IMG/VR virus record: IMGVR_UViG_3300037459_000161
Location: 1 to 59,721 of that record
Origin: a virus
DNA length: 59,721 nucleotides
Direction: 5' to 3' (one strand)
The notes under the pieces were generated by a model. The model was not told where the DNA came from. It saw nothing but the letters and a program-made list of their open reading frames with translations, and searched no databases. The position numbers and the translations under genes are program-made. The stretch's first letter is position 1, and the number at the start of each line of letters is the position of its first letter. Below, piece by piece: positions 4,448-29,817 of the stretch.

Positions 4448-4490
4448 ACCGCAAATATAGAAATTACAAAATTCTAAACGTTGATGGAAT

Positions 4491-4577
4491 TTATTCTTGC
4501 AAAAAATCGCAGGGTTCTTTTTTATTTGATGATATTTCCATTATTCCACCTATGTTAACGGGTTCTTTATTCACCAT
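4491..4577 (-). CDS. 28-codon ORF, uncertain
   Basis: Short ORF whose start overlaps the stop of a membrane peptide ORF. It contains an A-rich run before its end, where a +1 shift would enter the open Cys-rich frame of the next ORF. May be the 5' part of that gene. Confidence 0.3.
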   Translation of the reverse strand: MVNKEPVNIGGIMEISSNKKEPCDFLQE

Positions 4578-4636
4578 TTTATAAACACCAAACCAATTAT
4601 TCCAATTAAAAGTAGTGTTATACCAATTTCAATCAT
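4571..4636 (-). CDS. 21-aa membrane peptide
   Basis: Encodes MIEIGITLLLIGIIGLVFIKW, almost entirely one hydrophobic helix, with an ATGA overlap to the upstream stop. Small membrane peptides of this kind are common in phage cassettes; function unknown. Confidence 0.4.
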   Translation of the reverse strand: MIEIGITLLLIGIIGLVFIKW

Positions 4637-4965
4637 AGCCAAATATCCTTTGCTTGTTCTGCTTCTATTTCTTTGTGCTCTTTCCATCCGTCGTAAATTG
4701 ATTTAATAACTACCTTCATATTAATAAACCATATAGTATTCCTACGAGTAAAATAGTCAAAATCATCATGATCTTTTACAAAACCAACTCTTGATATTGG
4801 GAAGCACAATGGATCATCTTTTAATGAAATTTCACATTGATAAAATTCTGTATATTCATCACAGACTAATTTATATGTAGTATTTTTAAATTCAAAGTTT
4901 GTTTTAAAACTAACTTCCCCATCAAGTATTTCGTGAATCATTTGTGCTGAATTTCTTTCACTCAT
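4633..4965 (-). CDS. hypothetical protein
   Basis: 110 aa. The ATG at 4965 overlaps the upstream stop by 8 nt and is preferred to an upstream in-frame codon at 5010. Mixed alpha/beta composition, no recognised domain. Confidence 0.5.
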   Translation of the reverse strand: MSERNSAQMIHEILDGEVSFKTNFEFKNTTYKLVCDEYTEFYQCEISLKDDPLCFPISRVGFVKDHDDFDYFTRRNTIWFINMKVVIKSIYDGWKEHKEIEAEQAKDIWL

Positions 4966-9480: not shown

Positions 9481-9670
9481 TTTCTTCTTTTCCGTGTTGT
9501 TTTATTGCTTCAACTAAAATTTCAACCTGTTCATTTGATTCCATCAAATCTCTTTCTAATTCGTCAATAACCTTTCCTGCAAATATAAATACTACGCAAA
9601 AACCAATAACAAAACCTACAAGTACTCCTGCAATTACTATATCAAGTGCATATGTTGTATCAAGCCACAT
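9455..9670 (-). CDS. membrane-anchored coiled-coil protein
   Basis: 71 aa: one N-terminal transmembrane helix (IVIAGVLVGFVIGFCVVFIFAG) and a cytoplasmic helical tail. i-spanin-like architecture, but it sits in the early region far from the endolysin gene, so a lysis role is doubtful. Confidence 0.5.
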   Translation of the reverse strand: MWLDTTYALDIVIAGVLVGFVIGFCVVFIFAGKVIDELERDLMESNEQVEILVEAIKQHGKEENDINLHRL

Positions 9671-10544
9671 TCTTTAAATACCACGGACCAACAGTTTGTG
9701 AAAAGCCCGAAGCATTTTTGTGTCCACCACCACCATATATTTTTGCAATTTCTGAAACATCAAAATCACCTTCGCTGCGTAATGAATATTGAAATTTACT
9801 ATCTGATTTTTGAAACCATGCCATTGCGTAATCAATTCTATCAACACGTTGCAAAATTTCATGACAGGTTTCACTAGCAAAAGTAAGTGGAGCATTTACA
9901 ATTCCAAGCCGATGTTCTTTTAGAACCATAAAATCCATTTCATCGGCGAGCAATTTAACCTGTTGTTGTGTATAACGTAGAATGTGTTCACCACGTTCAA
10001 TCATTACTGCCATCGGCCAATAATGGAAATTATCCCAGTTTTCAAATGTCATTTCGTAAGATGCCATATATGCATGAAAAGCTTTTGTTCCGCCATAATT
10101 GAATTGCCAAAGATCTCTATCCTCGACACATTCAATCCAATGCGGCATTACAATATTTTCTAAATCATTTACAGTTTGTTTTTTACTGTACACAGAACTA
10201 AAATATTCCCAAGCTAAACCTGCTCCAGAATGTTCAATATCAAAATGACAGAAATCAAGACCTTCACAATCTTTTTGAGCTGAAACATGATGGTCAAGAA
10301 CTTGAAAAGTTCCACCGATTTTTAACATTTGACCAATTTTAATCATTTGTTCTCTTGGATAACTAAAATCAAGAATAAAAACTGAATCTGCTTGTTTGAT
10401 TTCTTCCCAAGGTGGATCATTACCAAATACACCAGAATAAAATGTAATATCCGATTCTGGTCCTTGTAAAAATCTATTTGCAATCCAAGCCGATGTAAAA
10501 CCATCGTAACAATTACCATGATATATAATTAGATATTTATGCAT
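9660..10544 (-). CDS. DHH/DHHA1 family phosphoesterase
   Basis: 294 aa. N-terminal DHH motifs HGNCYDGFTSAW, LDFSYPREQM and VLDHHVSA carry the metal-binding Asp and His residues. The C-terminal GGGGHKNASGF is the DHHA1 substrate-binding motif. The family includes nanoRNases/pAp phosphatases (NrnA) and RecJ-like nucleases; the size and DHHA1 fit a nanoRNase-like enzyme recycling short oligonucleotides or degrading a signal nucleotide. The gene starts after GAAGGGGT. Confidence 0.75.
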   Translation of the reverse strand: MHKYLIIYHGNCYDGFTSAWIANRFLQGPESDITFYSGVFGNDPPWEEIKQADSVFILDFSYPREQMIKIGQMLKIGGTFQVLDHHVSAQKDCEGLDFCHFDIEHSGAGLAWEYFSSVYSKKQTVNDLENIVMPHWIECVEDRDLWQFNYGGTKAFHAYMASYEMTFENWDNFHYWPMAVMIERGEHILRYTQQQVKLLADEMDFMVLKEHRLGIVNAPLTFASETCHEILQRVDRIDYAMAWFQKSDSKFQYSLRSEGDFDVSEIAKIYGGGGHKNASGFSQTVGPWYLKNVA

Positions 10545-15720: not shown

Positions 15721-15732
15721 TTTATGAAAACT

Positions 15733-15805
15733 CAGGAGTTAGGATAACTGGAAAATCCATTGGGTTGTGGCCCCGAAAATAAAGGTTCAAGACCTTTACT
15801 CCTGA
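15733..15805 (+). tRNA. tRNA-His (anticodon GUG)
   Basis: Full cloverleaf: acceptor CAGGAGT/ACTCCTG, D-stem GGAT/ATCC with loop AACTGGAAA, anticodon stem TTGGG/CCCGA with loop TTGTGGC (anticodon GTG, U33), 4-nt variable loop, T-stem AAAGG/CCTTT with loop TTCAAGA. The discriminator base is A and position -1 is U, so the G-1:C73 signature of most bacterial tRNA-His is absent. This matches the A73, G-1-less form known in many Alphaproteobacteria. CCA is not encoded. It is the only tRNA I found. Confidence 0.85.
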
Positions 15806-15825
15806 TTTACATACAAAGGTAATCA

Positions 15826-26462: not shown

Positions 26463-27580
26463 GAATAGCTGTAGACGCTACATACCTGTATAAAATGGGT
26501 TCTAATGACAAACTTCAACAATGGACTATTTCAACTGAAGGTGATTTAATCAAAATTGAGTGGGGAGAATTTCAAGGACGCAAACAATACAAAGAAGAAA
26601 TTGTAGAGTTTGGTCTTGCTGGAAGATCTCATGAGGAGCAATTACTTTTAAGAGTACAATCAAGAGTTAATCGCAAACTTGATATTGGTTATGTTTTCAA
26701 TATGAAAGAAGCGCAAAGTAAACTAAAAACAAATCGGCTAGGTTTAAAAATGCCGATGCTCGCAAAAATATGGAGTAAAGTAAAAGAAATAGATTATGAA
26801 AATGCTGTAATTCAACCAAAATTAGATGGACACAGATGTTTGATTTATTTCGACGGTGAAGATTACATAGCTTATTCAAGAAATGGAAAACAAATCACTT
26901 CTATTACAAATATTTTAGCTGACGTTAGTAAATGTGGTATGCAACCTGGAACTACACTTGATGGTGAATTATACCATCATGGAACTGCATTACAAACAAT
27001 TGGTTCTTGGGTTAGGAGAGAACAACCAAACACTGATAAACTTTGTTACACAATTTACGATATGATTCCTGCAATTGATAGTGTTGTTCATGATTGTGAT
27101 TTTAAAACTAGACTTGAAATGCTGCGATCATTGCGTTTAAACAATAATCTTGGGTTACTTGGTTGCATAGAGAATATAACAGAGAATCAAATACCTGAAT
27201 TTTTAAAAAGTGTAAGATCAATGAAATACGAAGGTTTGATAATTCGCCAAGCTGGTTTTGGTTATCAAGATGGAAAGCGGAATAATGCTTTAATCAAAGT
27301 AAAACAATTTCTAGATGACGAATTTGAAGTGATAGATATTCAAGCTTCTAAAGATAGTTTTTGTATTTTACATTGTAGAACACATAATATACTTAGCACT
27401 ATATATGAAACTGTAACTAAAGTCACAGCACCAGGGACATTCGATGAAAAAGACTTTGTATTGGCTAATCGAAAAGATTATATAGGTAGATACGTTACAG
27501 TTGAATTCGCAGATTGGACATTGGAAGGAAAACTTTTCCATCCGATAGCAAAATGCTGGCGAGAAAAAAATGAAGAATAA
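26459..27580 (+). CDS. ATP-dependent DNA ligase
   Basis: 373 aa. The first 75 residues form a small beta domain resembling a WGR domain. The nucleotidyltransferase domain follows: motif I QPKLDGHRC with the adenylated Lys, motif III DGELYHH, motif IV EGLIIRQ, motif V LIKVKQF, then an OB-fold. It seals nicks during phage replication and recombination, next to the phage polymerase. Confidence 0.85.
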   Translation: MRIAVDATYLYKMGSNDKLQQWTISTEGDLIKIEWGEFQGRKQYKEEIVEFGLAGRSHEEQLLLRVQSRVNRKLDIGYVFNMKEAQSKLKTNRLGLKMPMLAKIWSKVKEIDYENAVIQPKLDGHRCLIYFDGEDYIAYSRNGKQITSITNILADVSKCGMQPGTTLDGELYHHGTALQTIGSWVRREQPNTDKLCYTIYDMIPAIDSVVHDCDFKTRLEMLRSLRLNNNLGLLGCIENITENQIPEFLKSVRSMKYEGLIIRQAGFGYQDGKRNNALIKVKQFLDDEFEVIDIQASKDSFCILHCRTHNILSTIYETVTKVTAPGTFDEKDFVLANRKDYIGRYVTVEFADWTLEGKLFHPIAKCWREKNEE

Positions 27581-28022
27581 TGGATTTTATTGCATTGCTT
27601 TAGATAATCCAAAAAGCGGAGAAAACGTTGGTGGTTCAATGCGTGCCGCTCAAATTTATGGTGCTTCATTAATTGTTTTAGGTGGTAAACGTCCAGAAAA
27701 ATTAATCAAACACCCAACAGATACAATGAAAGCGTTTAAACATATACCATCTGTTTTAGTTGAAGATATATTTGAAGCTTTACCTTTTGATTGCATTCCT
27801 GTCGCTGTAGATTTGATTAATGGTGCAATGCCACTACCAAATTATTGCCACCCAAAGAGAGCATTTTATATTTTTGGCGCTGAAGATGCAACATTAGGAA
27901 AACGGATTACTGATCGGTGTAGGGATATTGTCTTTATTCCAACGCGGAGTTGCATGAATTTAGCTGCCACAGTTAATGTAGTTCTTTATGACAGATTATC
28001 AAAATTAGGGGTTGCAATTTAA
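27570..28022 (+). CDS. SpoU-family RNA 2'-O-methyltransferase
   Basis: 150 aa. SPOUT-fold motifs: N-terminal PKSGENVGGSMRAA, motif 2 FYIFGAEDATLGKR, motif 3 RSCMNLAATVNVVLYDR. These proteins use a knotted SAM site to methylate ribose in tRNA or rRNA (TrmH/TrmL group). It overlaps the ligase by 11 nt and ends immediately before the Y-RNA-like array and Ro60 gene, so the phage RNAs or their tRNA-like parts are candidate substrates (inference). Confidence 0.8.
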   Translation: MKNNGFYCIALDNPKSGENVGGSMRAAQIYGASLIVLGGKRPEKLIKHPTDTMKAFKHIPSVLVEDIFEALPFDCIPVAVDLINGAMPLPNYCHPKRAFYIFGAEDATLGKRITDRCRDIVFIPTRSCMNLAATVNVVLYDRLSKLGVAI

Positions 28023-28039
28023 AATGAATCACCTATAAT
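28012..28039 (+). promoter_or_regulatory. promoter of Y-RNA-like array
   Basis: TTGCAA, 16-bp spacer, TATAAT. The expected start, 7-8 nt after the -10 box, falls at 28046-28047, exactly the 5' end of the first RNA stem. The promoter overlaps the end of the methylase gene. Confidence 0.7.
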
Positions 28040-28046
28040 CCTGATT

Positions 28047-28114
28047 GCTCGAATGGCGTATATAACGGTTACTTCATTATAGATAAGATACTGTTATTGC
28101 TTGTTCCTTCGAGC
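28047..28114 (+). ncRNA. Y-RNA-like RNA, unit 1
   Basis: Terminal stem GCTCGAA/TTCGAGC, conserved GGCGTA opposite TGTTCC (an internal-loop helix), then stem ATAACGG/CTGTTAT and the conserved TTACTTC at the 5' side of the loop. 68 nt. Closing helix, conserved distorted helix and variable loop match the Ro60-binding half of Y RNAs. Confidence 0.75.
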
Positions 28115-28126
28115 GTTTGATTTGAT

Positions 28127-28223
28127 GTTACAATGGCGTAGAATACAGTTACTTCTTTACTGAAACAAAGATAGTCTACCGAAAGGGGACTAACAATTTC
28201 TGTATTCGTTTGTTCCTTGTAGC
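28127..28223 (+). ncRNA. Y-RNA-like RNA, unit 2
   Basis: Terminal stem GTTACAA/TTGTAGC, GGCGTA opposite TGTTCC, stem GAATACAG/CTGTATTC. The loop carries two further hairpins (TCTTT/AAAGA and TAGTC/GACTA with a GAAA apex). Stem sequences differ from unit 1 but remain paired. Confidence 0.75.
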
Positions 28224-28230
28224 TTGATTT

Positions 28231-28346
28231 TGTGATGGCGTAGTTAACAGTTACTTCCTCTGCTAAAGGAGAAACCTAGTTAAGAATTTGGCTATCAAGT
28301 CAAATCTAAACCAAGGACTTTGTACTGTAAACGTTTGTTCCTCACA
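28231..28346 (+). ncRNA. Y-RNA-like RNA, unit 3
   Basis: Terminal stem TGTGA/TCACA, GGCGTA opposite TGTTCC, stem GTTAACAG/CTGTAAAC (one mismatch). Longest insert (about 70 nt) of the four. Linker TTGATTT follows, as after units 1 and 2. Confidence 0.75.
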
Positions 28347-28358
28347 CTTGATTTACTT

Positions 28359-28439
28359 TGTAGTGGCGTAGATAGCAGATACTTCAGTTCGATCCTGTTA
28401 AGCCTTGGATGGCAAGCCTGTTATCGTATGTTCCCTACA
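28359..28439 (+). ncRNA. Y-RNA-like RNA, unit 4
   Basis: Terminal stem TGTAG/CTACA, GGCGTA opposite TGTTCC, stem GATAGCAG/CTGTTATC. The insert contains CAG-TTCGATC-CTG, a 7-nt loop matching the tRNA T-loop consensus, reminiscent of the tRNA-like module of bacterial YrlA RNAs. It ends 22 nt before the Ro60 start codon. Confidence 0.75.
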
Positions 28440-28461
28440 CTCACAGAAGGGGTTTTCTAAA

Positions 28462-29817
28462 ATGCGTACTAATTTACTTCCTGAATCAATGCGAACACAT
28501 GAAGGTGCAAAAGCTTACACACTAACAACAGAACTTGAATTACGTCGTTCTGTACTTTCATGTTTTCTGTGGGAAGATTCTTTTTACGAAAATGGAGTTT
28601 CTATTGCAGAGCGAATTTCAACGCTTTGTGATTCAGTTGAACCTGAAAAAATTGCAAAAATTGCAATTGAAGCAAGAGAAGTAAATCATCTTCGTCATGC
28701 GCCTCTATGGTTGATTTGCGGTTTAGCAAGAAATCATAGTGGTGATTCACTTGTTTCTGATACTGTAGAACGAGTTATTCAACGAGTTGATGAAATTCCT
28801 GAATTGCTATCTCTGTATTCTCTTAGTGTTGTAGGTGTTAAAACAAAAAATGGTAGAACAAAGAAACTTGGAAAACTTTCCAATGGTATCAAAAATGGAA
28901 TTGCGCGAGCATTTACAAAGTTCACACCCTATCAACTTGCAAAGTATAACCGCAAAGGTGCAATCACTTTGAAAGATGCTTTGTTTGTTTCTCACGCTAA
29001 ACCTATTACGGAAGCACAAGGTAAAGCCTGGAAAGATTTGATTAATGGTGAACTTGCTACGCCCGACACTTGGGAAGTTGCTTTGTCTGGTGGAGCGGAT
29101 AAGAAAGAAACATTTATTCGTTTGATTGCAGAAAAGAAATTGGGAGCACTTGCTTTGCTTCGTAATTTGCGGAATATGGATGAATCTGGTGTACCTATTG
29201 ACGTAATAAAGGGAGCATTGGCGGAAGCTAACGTTTCTAGAGTTTTGCCTTTTCGGTTTATTGCAGCGGCGCAATTTGTTCCCCAATTGGAAGAAGATCT
29301 AGAAAAGTGTATGTTGAGAAGCATTCAAGAACAACCTAAAATTCCTGGTTCAACCGCAATGCTTATTGACCATTCTGGTTCTATGCCTGGGTATCAAATT
29401 TCTGAAAAATCCAAACTTGATCGTTTCGACGCTGCTACTGCGCTTGCAATGATTGCACGAGAAACTTTTGAAAATATTCGTACTTTTGCTTTTTCTGAAC
29501 AAACTGTAGAAGTTCCTTCTCGTCATGGTTTTGCTTTGCGAGATGCAATCGGAAATTGTATGGGTTTTGGTATGACTAGGCTTGGAGCAGCAATTGAGCA
29601 TGTTGGTAAAGTTTATAATTACGATAGAATTATTGTTATTACCGACGAGCAAAGTCACGATCGGGTTGGGCCTCCCAAGGCTGGTTCAAATGGATATATG
29701 ATTAACGTTGCAACCTATAAGAATGGTGTAGGTTATGGTCCCTGGACACATATTGACGGGTGGTCTGAATCTGTACTTAAATTCATTGCCGAACTTGAAA
29801 ACTTCGGCAATTCATGA
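28462..29817 (+). CDS. rsr: Ro60/TROVE-domain RNA-binding protein
   Basis: 451 aa. HEGAKAYTLTTELELRRSVLSCFLWEDSFYE near the N-terminus opens a TROVE HEAT-repeat ring. The C-terminal vWA domain shows an intact MIDAS: LIDHSGSM. Ro60 rings bind Y RNAs on the outside and misfolded RNA ends through the cavity; in bacteria they work with exonucleases. The start ATG is set by GAAGGGGTT upstream. The gene directly follows the four Y-RNA-like units. Confidence 0.9.
   Translation: MRTNLLPESMRTHEGAKAYTLTTELELRRSVLSCFLWEDSFYENGVSIAERISTLCDSVEPEKIAKIAIEAREVNHLRHAPLWLICGLARNHSGDSLVSDTVERVIQRVDEIPELLSLYSLSVVGVKTKNGRTKKLGKLSNGIKNGIARAFTKFTPYQLAKYNRKGAITLKDALFVSHAKPITEAQGKAWKDLINGELATPDTWEVALSGGADKKETFIRLIAEKKLGALALLRNLRNMDESGVPIDVIKGALAEANVSRVLPFRFIAAAQFVPQLEEDLEKCMLRSIQEQPKIPGSTAMLIDHSGSMPGYQISEKSKLDRFDAATALAMIARETFENIRTFAFSEQTVEVPSRHGFALRDAIGNCMGFGMTRLGAAIEHVGKVYNYDRIIVITDEQSHDRVGPPKAGSNGYMINVATYKNGVGYGPWTHIDGWSESVLKFIAELENFGNS

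Follow-up and report, generated by a model that had tools for sequence, protein, structure and literature searches.

A viral Ro60 gene preceded by four Y-RNA-like RNAs, and the tandem arrays of its phage and bacterial relatives

The IMG/VR virus record IMGVR_UViG_3300037459_000161 (59,721 bases, 34.7% GC), referred to here as the window, encodes a Ro60 (TROVE) protein, and the approximately 440 non-coding bases between this gene (28462-29817) and the preceding SpoU/TrmH gene (27570-28022) are home to four small RNA units in tandem. Judged by architecture and genetic linkage, the four units are Y RNAs, since they match a covariance model trained on other loci, their helices covary, and a scan for the RNA pattern alone returned Ro60 loci. 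A sequence-only reading of this DNA had proposed a phage Ro60 locus with four Y-RNA-like RNAs whose stems covary around unrelated inserts; this identity is supported by the covariation, by the independently trained model and by linkage to Ro60 across hundreds of loci.

The covariance model, R1, was trained on 25 minimal units taken from elsewhere, with the window sequence excluded. When run over the 59.7-kb window it returned exactly four units and nothing further up to E 10:

28047-28114, plus strand: Y RNA unit 1, minimal type, 68 nucleotides (nt); R1 55.8 bits, E 2.3e-13; also seen in the fold
28127-28223, plus strand: Y RNA unit 2, 97 nt; R1 53.4 bits, E 1e-12; fold z score -2.4
28229-28348, plus strand: Y RNA unit 3, 120 nt; R1 47.3 bits, E 5.4e-11 (default filters); score 34.8 with the descriptor introduced below
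28357-28441, plus strand: Y RNA unit 4, 85 nt; R1 47.2 bits, E 5.8e-11

The sizes given by the model, 68-120 nt, compare with the 68-116 nt read from the letters alone. The units have the make-up of a Ro60 site, namely paired ends and an interrupted helix, consisting of helix 1 (H1), a bulge, GG paired with CC, an internal loop and helix 2 (H2), with strong covariation. Unit 1 shows this in its plainest form, with a 7-bp H1, a bulged U plus GG/CC, the internal loop, H2 and a 20-nt terminal loop. The insert of unit 2 forms two hairpins, one of them with a CGAAAG cap, and that of unit 3 is long and branched, while in unit 4 the insert has two hairpins with 3-bp stems, one with a perfect T-loop (CAG-TTCGATC-CTG) and the other with GG in its loop region (GCC-TTGGAT-GGC). 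As this two-hairpin fold lies just 1.6 kcal/mol above the minimum-free-energy fold, a reduced tRNA-like head is possible for unit 4. The tRNA-like module of the Rfam YrlA family (RF02553), with T arm, acceptor-like arm and D arm, is absent from units 1-3 and at most reduced in unit 4. Folding of the whole 415-nt stretch gave a row of four independent beads with unpaired AT-rich spacers between them, and with helix-2 pair probabilities mostly >0.8. The closing stems had been read correctly (CTCGAA/TTCGAG, TTACAA/TTGTAG, TGTGA/TCACA and TGTAG/CTACA), and so had the shared blocks GGCGTA (within TGGCGTA at 28054, 28134, 28236 and 28364) and TGTTCC, which occur in all four units; the third block, TTACTTC, is found in units 1-3 and reads ATACTTC in unit 4.

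The pairing of the two helices was examined with units from many loci. A descriptor comprising the core motifs and both helices, scanned over 1.23 Mb of Ro60-oriented loci, gave 479 matches with a score of at least 29 on the Ro60 sense strand versus a single one on the antisense strand. For 49 units chosen by motif letters alone, so that the choice does not select for pairing, 5.1 of 6 pairs formed in H1 and 5.9 of 7 in H2, compared to 2.8 and 4.25, respectively, when partners were shuffled between units, and, over the 55 columns, the nine column pairs with the highest corrected mutual information were all predicted pairs. In a set of 50 diverse units, the covariation score reached 0.816, versus 0.249 (sd 0.020) for shuffled and 0.12-0.21 for slid partners, and compensatory changes on both sides were present at 13 of 13 pairs. 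RNAalifold, to which no structure was supplied, arrived at a consensus in which H1 is followed by a single bulged U, by two invariant G-C pairs that join GG to CC, by an asymmetric loop and by an H2 of 8 bp.

Linkage to Ro60 was also seen when the search ignored the protein. The RNA-only pattern GTGGCGTAGNNNNCNGNTACTTC, run across IMG/VR, matched 86 stretches, and the DNA fetched around these matches contained a TROVE gene in 74 of them (68 of the first 80 and all six remaining). Counting the window, the 69 TROVE-bearing loci of the first set all have motif and gene on the same strand, with the motif upstream of the gene in 63. At the level of whole genomes, with up to 150 candidates scored per genome, all R1 matches in eight genomes of bacteria and six records of viruses fell at the Ro60 locus. 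In the window the TROVE gene does follow just after the array, as had been read, with its ATG 20 nt rather than 22 nt past unit 4:

28462-29817, plus strand: Ro60 (TROVE) gene, 451 amino acids, helical ring plus vWA domain; Pfam TROVE, PHROG and PDB matches
28445-28452, plus strand: Shine-Dalgarno-like AGAAGGGG, recognised in the sequence 9 nt 5' of the ATG

The encoded protein belongs to the Ro60/TROVE family, as judged from its TROVE and vWA domains, its metal-ion-dependent adhesion site (MIDAS) and its predicted ring fold. Pfam TROVE (PF05731) matched above the cut-off (E 3.3e-13) and vWA_Ro60 (PF25045) below it (1.2e-4; 22.5 bits, cut-off 27.7), and PHROG 850 matched with E 3e-38. The MIDAS is intact (D303-S305-S307, T372, D395), and its DxSxS motif, T372 and D395 are invariant among 33 sequences. 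An AlphaFold model (pLDDT, the predicted local distance difference test, 84.6) resembled PDB entry 9kop (Z 25.2) and Xenopus Ro60 (1yvp; Z 23.3, 427 residues aligned). As counterparts of K170 and H187, which we take to contact Y RNA in human and Xenopus Ro60, the alignment gives K161 (the same in all 33 sequences) and H178 (at least 90% conserved). The best PDB match, over the full length, was the Ro60 of Thermus phage phiLo (9l5y, with a near-identical TROVE chain in 9kop; E 5e-50, Z 22.6-25.2), while human and Xenopus Ro60 and Deinococcus Rsr matched more weakly. PhiLo Ro60 is the closest solved structure, but it is only about 27% identical to the window protein and was deposited as a dimer; our literature search found no paper on it.

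Arrays of two to eight units are the usual state of this Ro60 clade, in phages as well as in bacteria. The window and phage Olaya have four units each, Gurke and Bambus five, and CcrPW and CcrColossus eight. At least two units were found on 62 of 90 viral contigs and at 71 of 80 bacterial loci (Bradyrhizobium, Acidobacteria, Hyphomonadaceae, Caulobacter and Asticcacaulis), 42 of which have at least four; these counts include near-duplicate contigs and are lower bounds, since R1 finds units at several loci without a descriptor match. The idea that a four-member array is exceptional thus did not hold, and its premise of one Y RNA as the norm was too narrow in view of the arrays of the clade, of tandem YrlA loci and of the Salmonella operon with its two Y RNAs (PMC7790460, PMC9879122). 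YrlA loci of Rfam grade outside the clade, beside a different Ro60 lineage, are tandem as well: L268 (G201) has three YrlA matches and five clustered CGAATGCC cores at 1600-2080, and L267 (G054) two matches and four such cores at 1358-1942. As the cores outnumber the YrlA matches, Y RNAs without a full tRNA module may occur there. In a tree of 118 Ro60 proteins the window falls within a mostly viral clade, and approximately five switches between viral and bacterial carriers were seen. The units lie solely upstream of Ro60 in 151 of the 159 unit-bearing loci, the last one usually ~60-190 nt before the first Ro60-homologous codon. They lie downstream only in five loci (L017, L027, L031, L036 and L094), and the distance between array and gene exceeds 400 nt in 22 of 154.

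The heads carried by these cores are diverse. Inserts fall into length classes of ~20 nt (minimal), 40-60 nt with a T arm, 85-110 nt with a T arm, an acceptor-like stem and a D arm in the permuted order known from YrlA, and ~135 nt. T-arm motifs were present in 252 of the 494 units. Of the 138 multi-unit loci, 116 have them and 103 mix heads with and without a T arm; among viruses, the minimal head is the most frequent class (88 of 195). The permuted-tRNA heads of relatives match Rfam YrlA below its threshold, with up to 54 bits. Weak YrlA matches (28-42 bits) were rejected as evidence on their own and counted only inside core-bearing units, because sub-threshold RF02553 matches, probably tandem tRNAs, also occur in control genomes such as those of Escherichia coli and Bacillus subtilis. 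Public tRNA annotations overlap units with tRNA-like heads in CcrColossus (tRNA-Gln, L016 2131-2198) and Gurke (tRNA-Ser, L013 2769-2843).

Variants of this organisation were noticed in other phages. In crAss001 (L019, MH675552.1) and cr106_1 (L020, MT774378.1) the array lies 3' of the Ro60 gene and includes units with a variant core (TAGTGTA...TTACTTC...GTTCT; L019 ~4488-4567 and 4577-4653, L020 4451-4526, the last with an R1 E of 0.0024). Also 3' of the crAssphage TROVE gene are unannotated chimeras of tRNA and Y RNA (L019 4659-4806 and 4914-5058, L020 4538-4684), whose topology is opposite to that of YrlA: the acceptor stem is open (GGAGGGA/TCCCTCC, GGGGATG/CATCCCC), D and T arms are present, and a capped Ro60-type core replaces the anticodon arm. 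Their folds support the acceptor, the T arm and H2, though with z scores of -1.2 to -2.2 they are little better than shuffles; the Rfam tRNA model matched the first chimera over 144 nt with 46.6 bits. Rhizobium phage RHph_TM39 (L018 1733-2695) has at least four units with another variant core (TTGCGA...TACTTC...ATCT) ahead of its Ro60 gene, which is of the more distant type seen in Rhizobium phages.

Among characterised systems, the YrlA/YrlB RNAs of Salmonella (rsr-yrlBA-rtcBA; RF02553) are likewise small structured RNAs in tandem beside a Ro60 gene, whose two ends pair in a basal double helix that includes an asymmetric loop, and their permuted T-arm/acceptor/D-arm head recurs in many relatives of the window array. 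However, the window core is TGGCGTAG/CGTTTGTTCC and not CGGCGAATGCC-like, the array precedes Ro60, units 1-3 have no tRNA-like head, and the contig, which has no RtcB, does not share the RNA repair operon context known from Salmonella. None of the four units matches RF02553 (gathering threshold 69 bits) even at E 10, and R1 in turn gave no convincing match on the Rfam-grade YrlA loci L267-L272, so that the two cores differ; the window units are not YrlA as Rfam defines the family. The letters GGCG(U/A)A and UUGU..CC common to both cores hint at a shared origin. With Deinococcus radiodurans, whose Y RNA forms RYPER with Rsr and polynucleotide phosphorylase (PNPase), the window has in common a Ro60 orthologue and a Y RNA (PMC4726728, PMC8058203), yet Rsr (2nvo) is a distant match to the window protein (E 4e-6). 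The Ro60 site of vertebrate Y RNAs consists of a ~7-bp helix with a single bulged C and a three-nucleotide bulge opposite (PMC4726728). The RNAalifold consensus resembles it in its outer helix, single bulged nucleotide, short inner pairing, asymmetric loop and second helix, but the bulge is U instead of C, the sequence is different and the window units do not match the vertebrate Y_RNA model (RF00019). A match to a Drosophila long non-coding RNA model in Rfam (E 0.066) was taken as chance. The closest phage counterparts, CcrPW and CcrColossus (Caulobacter), Gurke (Brevundimonas) and Olaya (Xanthomonas), have the same core before a homologous Ro60 gene, but mostly with T-arm or permuted-tRNA heads, whereas the heads of the window are mainly non-tRNA.

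The sequences flanking and separating the units bear on how they might be expressed:

28012-28039, plus strand: predicted sigma-70-type promoter TTGCAA-16-TATAAT, consensus scan 10/12, the -10 ending 7 nt before unit 1
28115-28126, plus strand: spacer 1, AT-rich, likely RNA processing region, from spacer composition in the clade
28224-28228, plus strand: spacer 2, assigned from sequence to the same class as spacer 1
28349-28356, plus strand: spacer 3, assigned from sequence to the same class as spacer 1

The promoter that had been placed ahead of the array is favoured by its distance from unit 1 and by the relatives, in which upstream -10/-35 scores are better for first than for inner units (p 7e-11); its score as such is at chance level (11 sites with 10/12 found, 8.8 expected). 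Over 248 unit pairs of the clade, the spacers have a median length of 12.5 nt and a GC content of 0.43 versus 0.57 for the locus (p 5e-34).

Given these features, we consider it likely that the locus is a phage Ro60 ribonucleoprotein (RNP) operon, in which one transcript yields several Y RNAs that dock on Ro60 by a common core and differ in their heads. The single promoter before unit 1 would drive the four Y RNAs and the Ro60 mRNA as one transcript, and host RNase(s), most likely an enzyme such as RNase E, would cut the AU-rich spacers and free the Y RNAs; such a scheme fits the short AT-rich spacers and the promoter-like sites that score best before first units. The docking core, comprising H1, the single bulged U, two G-C pairs, the asymmetric CGUA/UUGUU loop, a 7-8 bp H2 and the conserved UACUUC, would seat each Y RNA on the outside of the Ro60 ring. 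If each ring held one Y RNA at a time, the pool would be divided among several RNPs that differ both in the gate over the ring and in the partner or substrate. The head would then cover the ring entrance or recruit a partner specific to it; in relatives with tRNA-like heads, the partner would probably be host PNPase or a tRNA enzyme. Gate and tether roles are known from work on D. radiodurans (PMC4726728, PMC8058203, PMC8394870), and the suggestion that the array provides several gates or tethers for one protein is plausible.

Several results weigh against the operon reading: when R1 was run unfiltered on a short piece of sequence, unit 3, which has the longest insert, scored only 9.9 bits over a partial stretch; the window units matched no Y RNA family of Rfam, neither at the gathering threshold nor at E 10; a search for RtcB in the phage contig found none; and units 1-3, lacking a tRNA-like module, give no basis for inferring PNPase binding. 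A rival notion is that all heads tether phage Ro60 to host PNPase, as in RYPER, and differ in strength or gate geometry, so that the array would tune decay only. RYPER is the sole worked-out function of a bacterial Ro60 with its Y RNA (PMC8058203, PMC8394870), but the part to which PNPase binding is ascribed, the tRNA-like domain, is missing from three of the four window units, and the mixing of T and non-T heads within most multi-unit loci exceeds what strength tuning would need; we regard this as unlikely. Quite improbable, in our judgement, is a cis-acting leader, in which Ro60 binds its own four-site 5' untranslated region and thereby represses translation or stabilises the transcript, the units never being separate RNAs. 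The almost constant upstream position and the 20-nt gap to the ATG in the window would suit it, but some arrays lie downstream of the gene, as in crAss001 and cr106_1, or far from it, which disfavours a purely cis-acting leader, and full permuted-tRNA heads such as those of the relatives would be unexpected in a plain operator; autoregulation could nevertheless operate alongside the RNP operon. We see only a slim chance that the units are decoys, with tRNA-like heads held by Ro60 absorbing host anticodon nucleases or tRNA-modifying enzymes in infection. A decoy role was proposed for the tRNA domain of Salmonella YrlA (PMC7790460), and the frequency of T-arm motifs is in line with it; however, in the window a tRNA-like part is at best possible for unit 4 and missing from the other three, the minimal head is the most frequent class among viruses, the permuted modules keep T, acceptor and D arms but no anticodon loop, and the same arrays are also found on bacterial chromosomes. 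That the units are no Y RNAs at all but a riboswitch-like or tRNA-derived repeat cluster next to Ro60 by chance, for which the missing Rfam matches might speak, is extremely improbable, given that the RNA-only searches of IMG/VR return Ro60 genes and that R1 matches in whole genomes fall at the Ro60 locus only.

The remainder of the window is that of a contractile-tailed phage: besides sheath, baseplate hub and tape measure, it encodes a DnaE, a DNA ligase, a primase and a helicase of its own. Directly 5' of the array lies a gene that may be no more than a neighbour but is a candidate modifier of the Y RNAs or of tRNA:

27570-28022, plus strand: SpoU/TrmH-family RNA 2'-O-methyltransferase gene; Pfam PF00588, E 2.4e-14; 3' end overlapping the promoter -35

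Elsewhere, the window has one tRNA-His gene (15732-15806) and a DHH phosphoesterase gene (9660-10544; PHROG 4771, E 2e-69), a candidate RNA or oligonucleotide hydrolase.

Ro60 and Y RNAs in bacteria and phages, including a two-member tandem, are already known. As far as the literature we found shows, and earlier reports of long arrays being possible, what is new are the long arrays, a distinct core outside the Rfam threshold, its spread over phages and bacteria, and the mixed heads within a locus. Tentatively, and with more doubt than for the operon itself, Ro60 of this clade may be an RNA-programmable ring: cassettes of two to eight Y RNAs would share one docking core and freely exchange their heads (minimal, hairpin, T arm only, permuted tRNA or long), the protein would be retargeted by the choice of RNA, and phages would use the ring against or for host RNA metabolism in infection. 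If this is true, the window represents a tRNA-poor version of such a cassette. Studies of Ro60 and Y RNAs have mostly dealt with a single protein and one or two RNAs. Covariation and a calibrated model make the core described here, which is missed at the Rfam threshold, recognisable at hundreds of loci in phages and bacteria, and this allows the heads to be listed and their partners to be found. Whether phage Ro60 redirects host RNA decay or counters tRNA-cutting defences is a question that can now be approached, and the arrays of CcrColossus, Olaya and Gurke, which are all in culture, make testing it feasible in laboratory strains.

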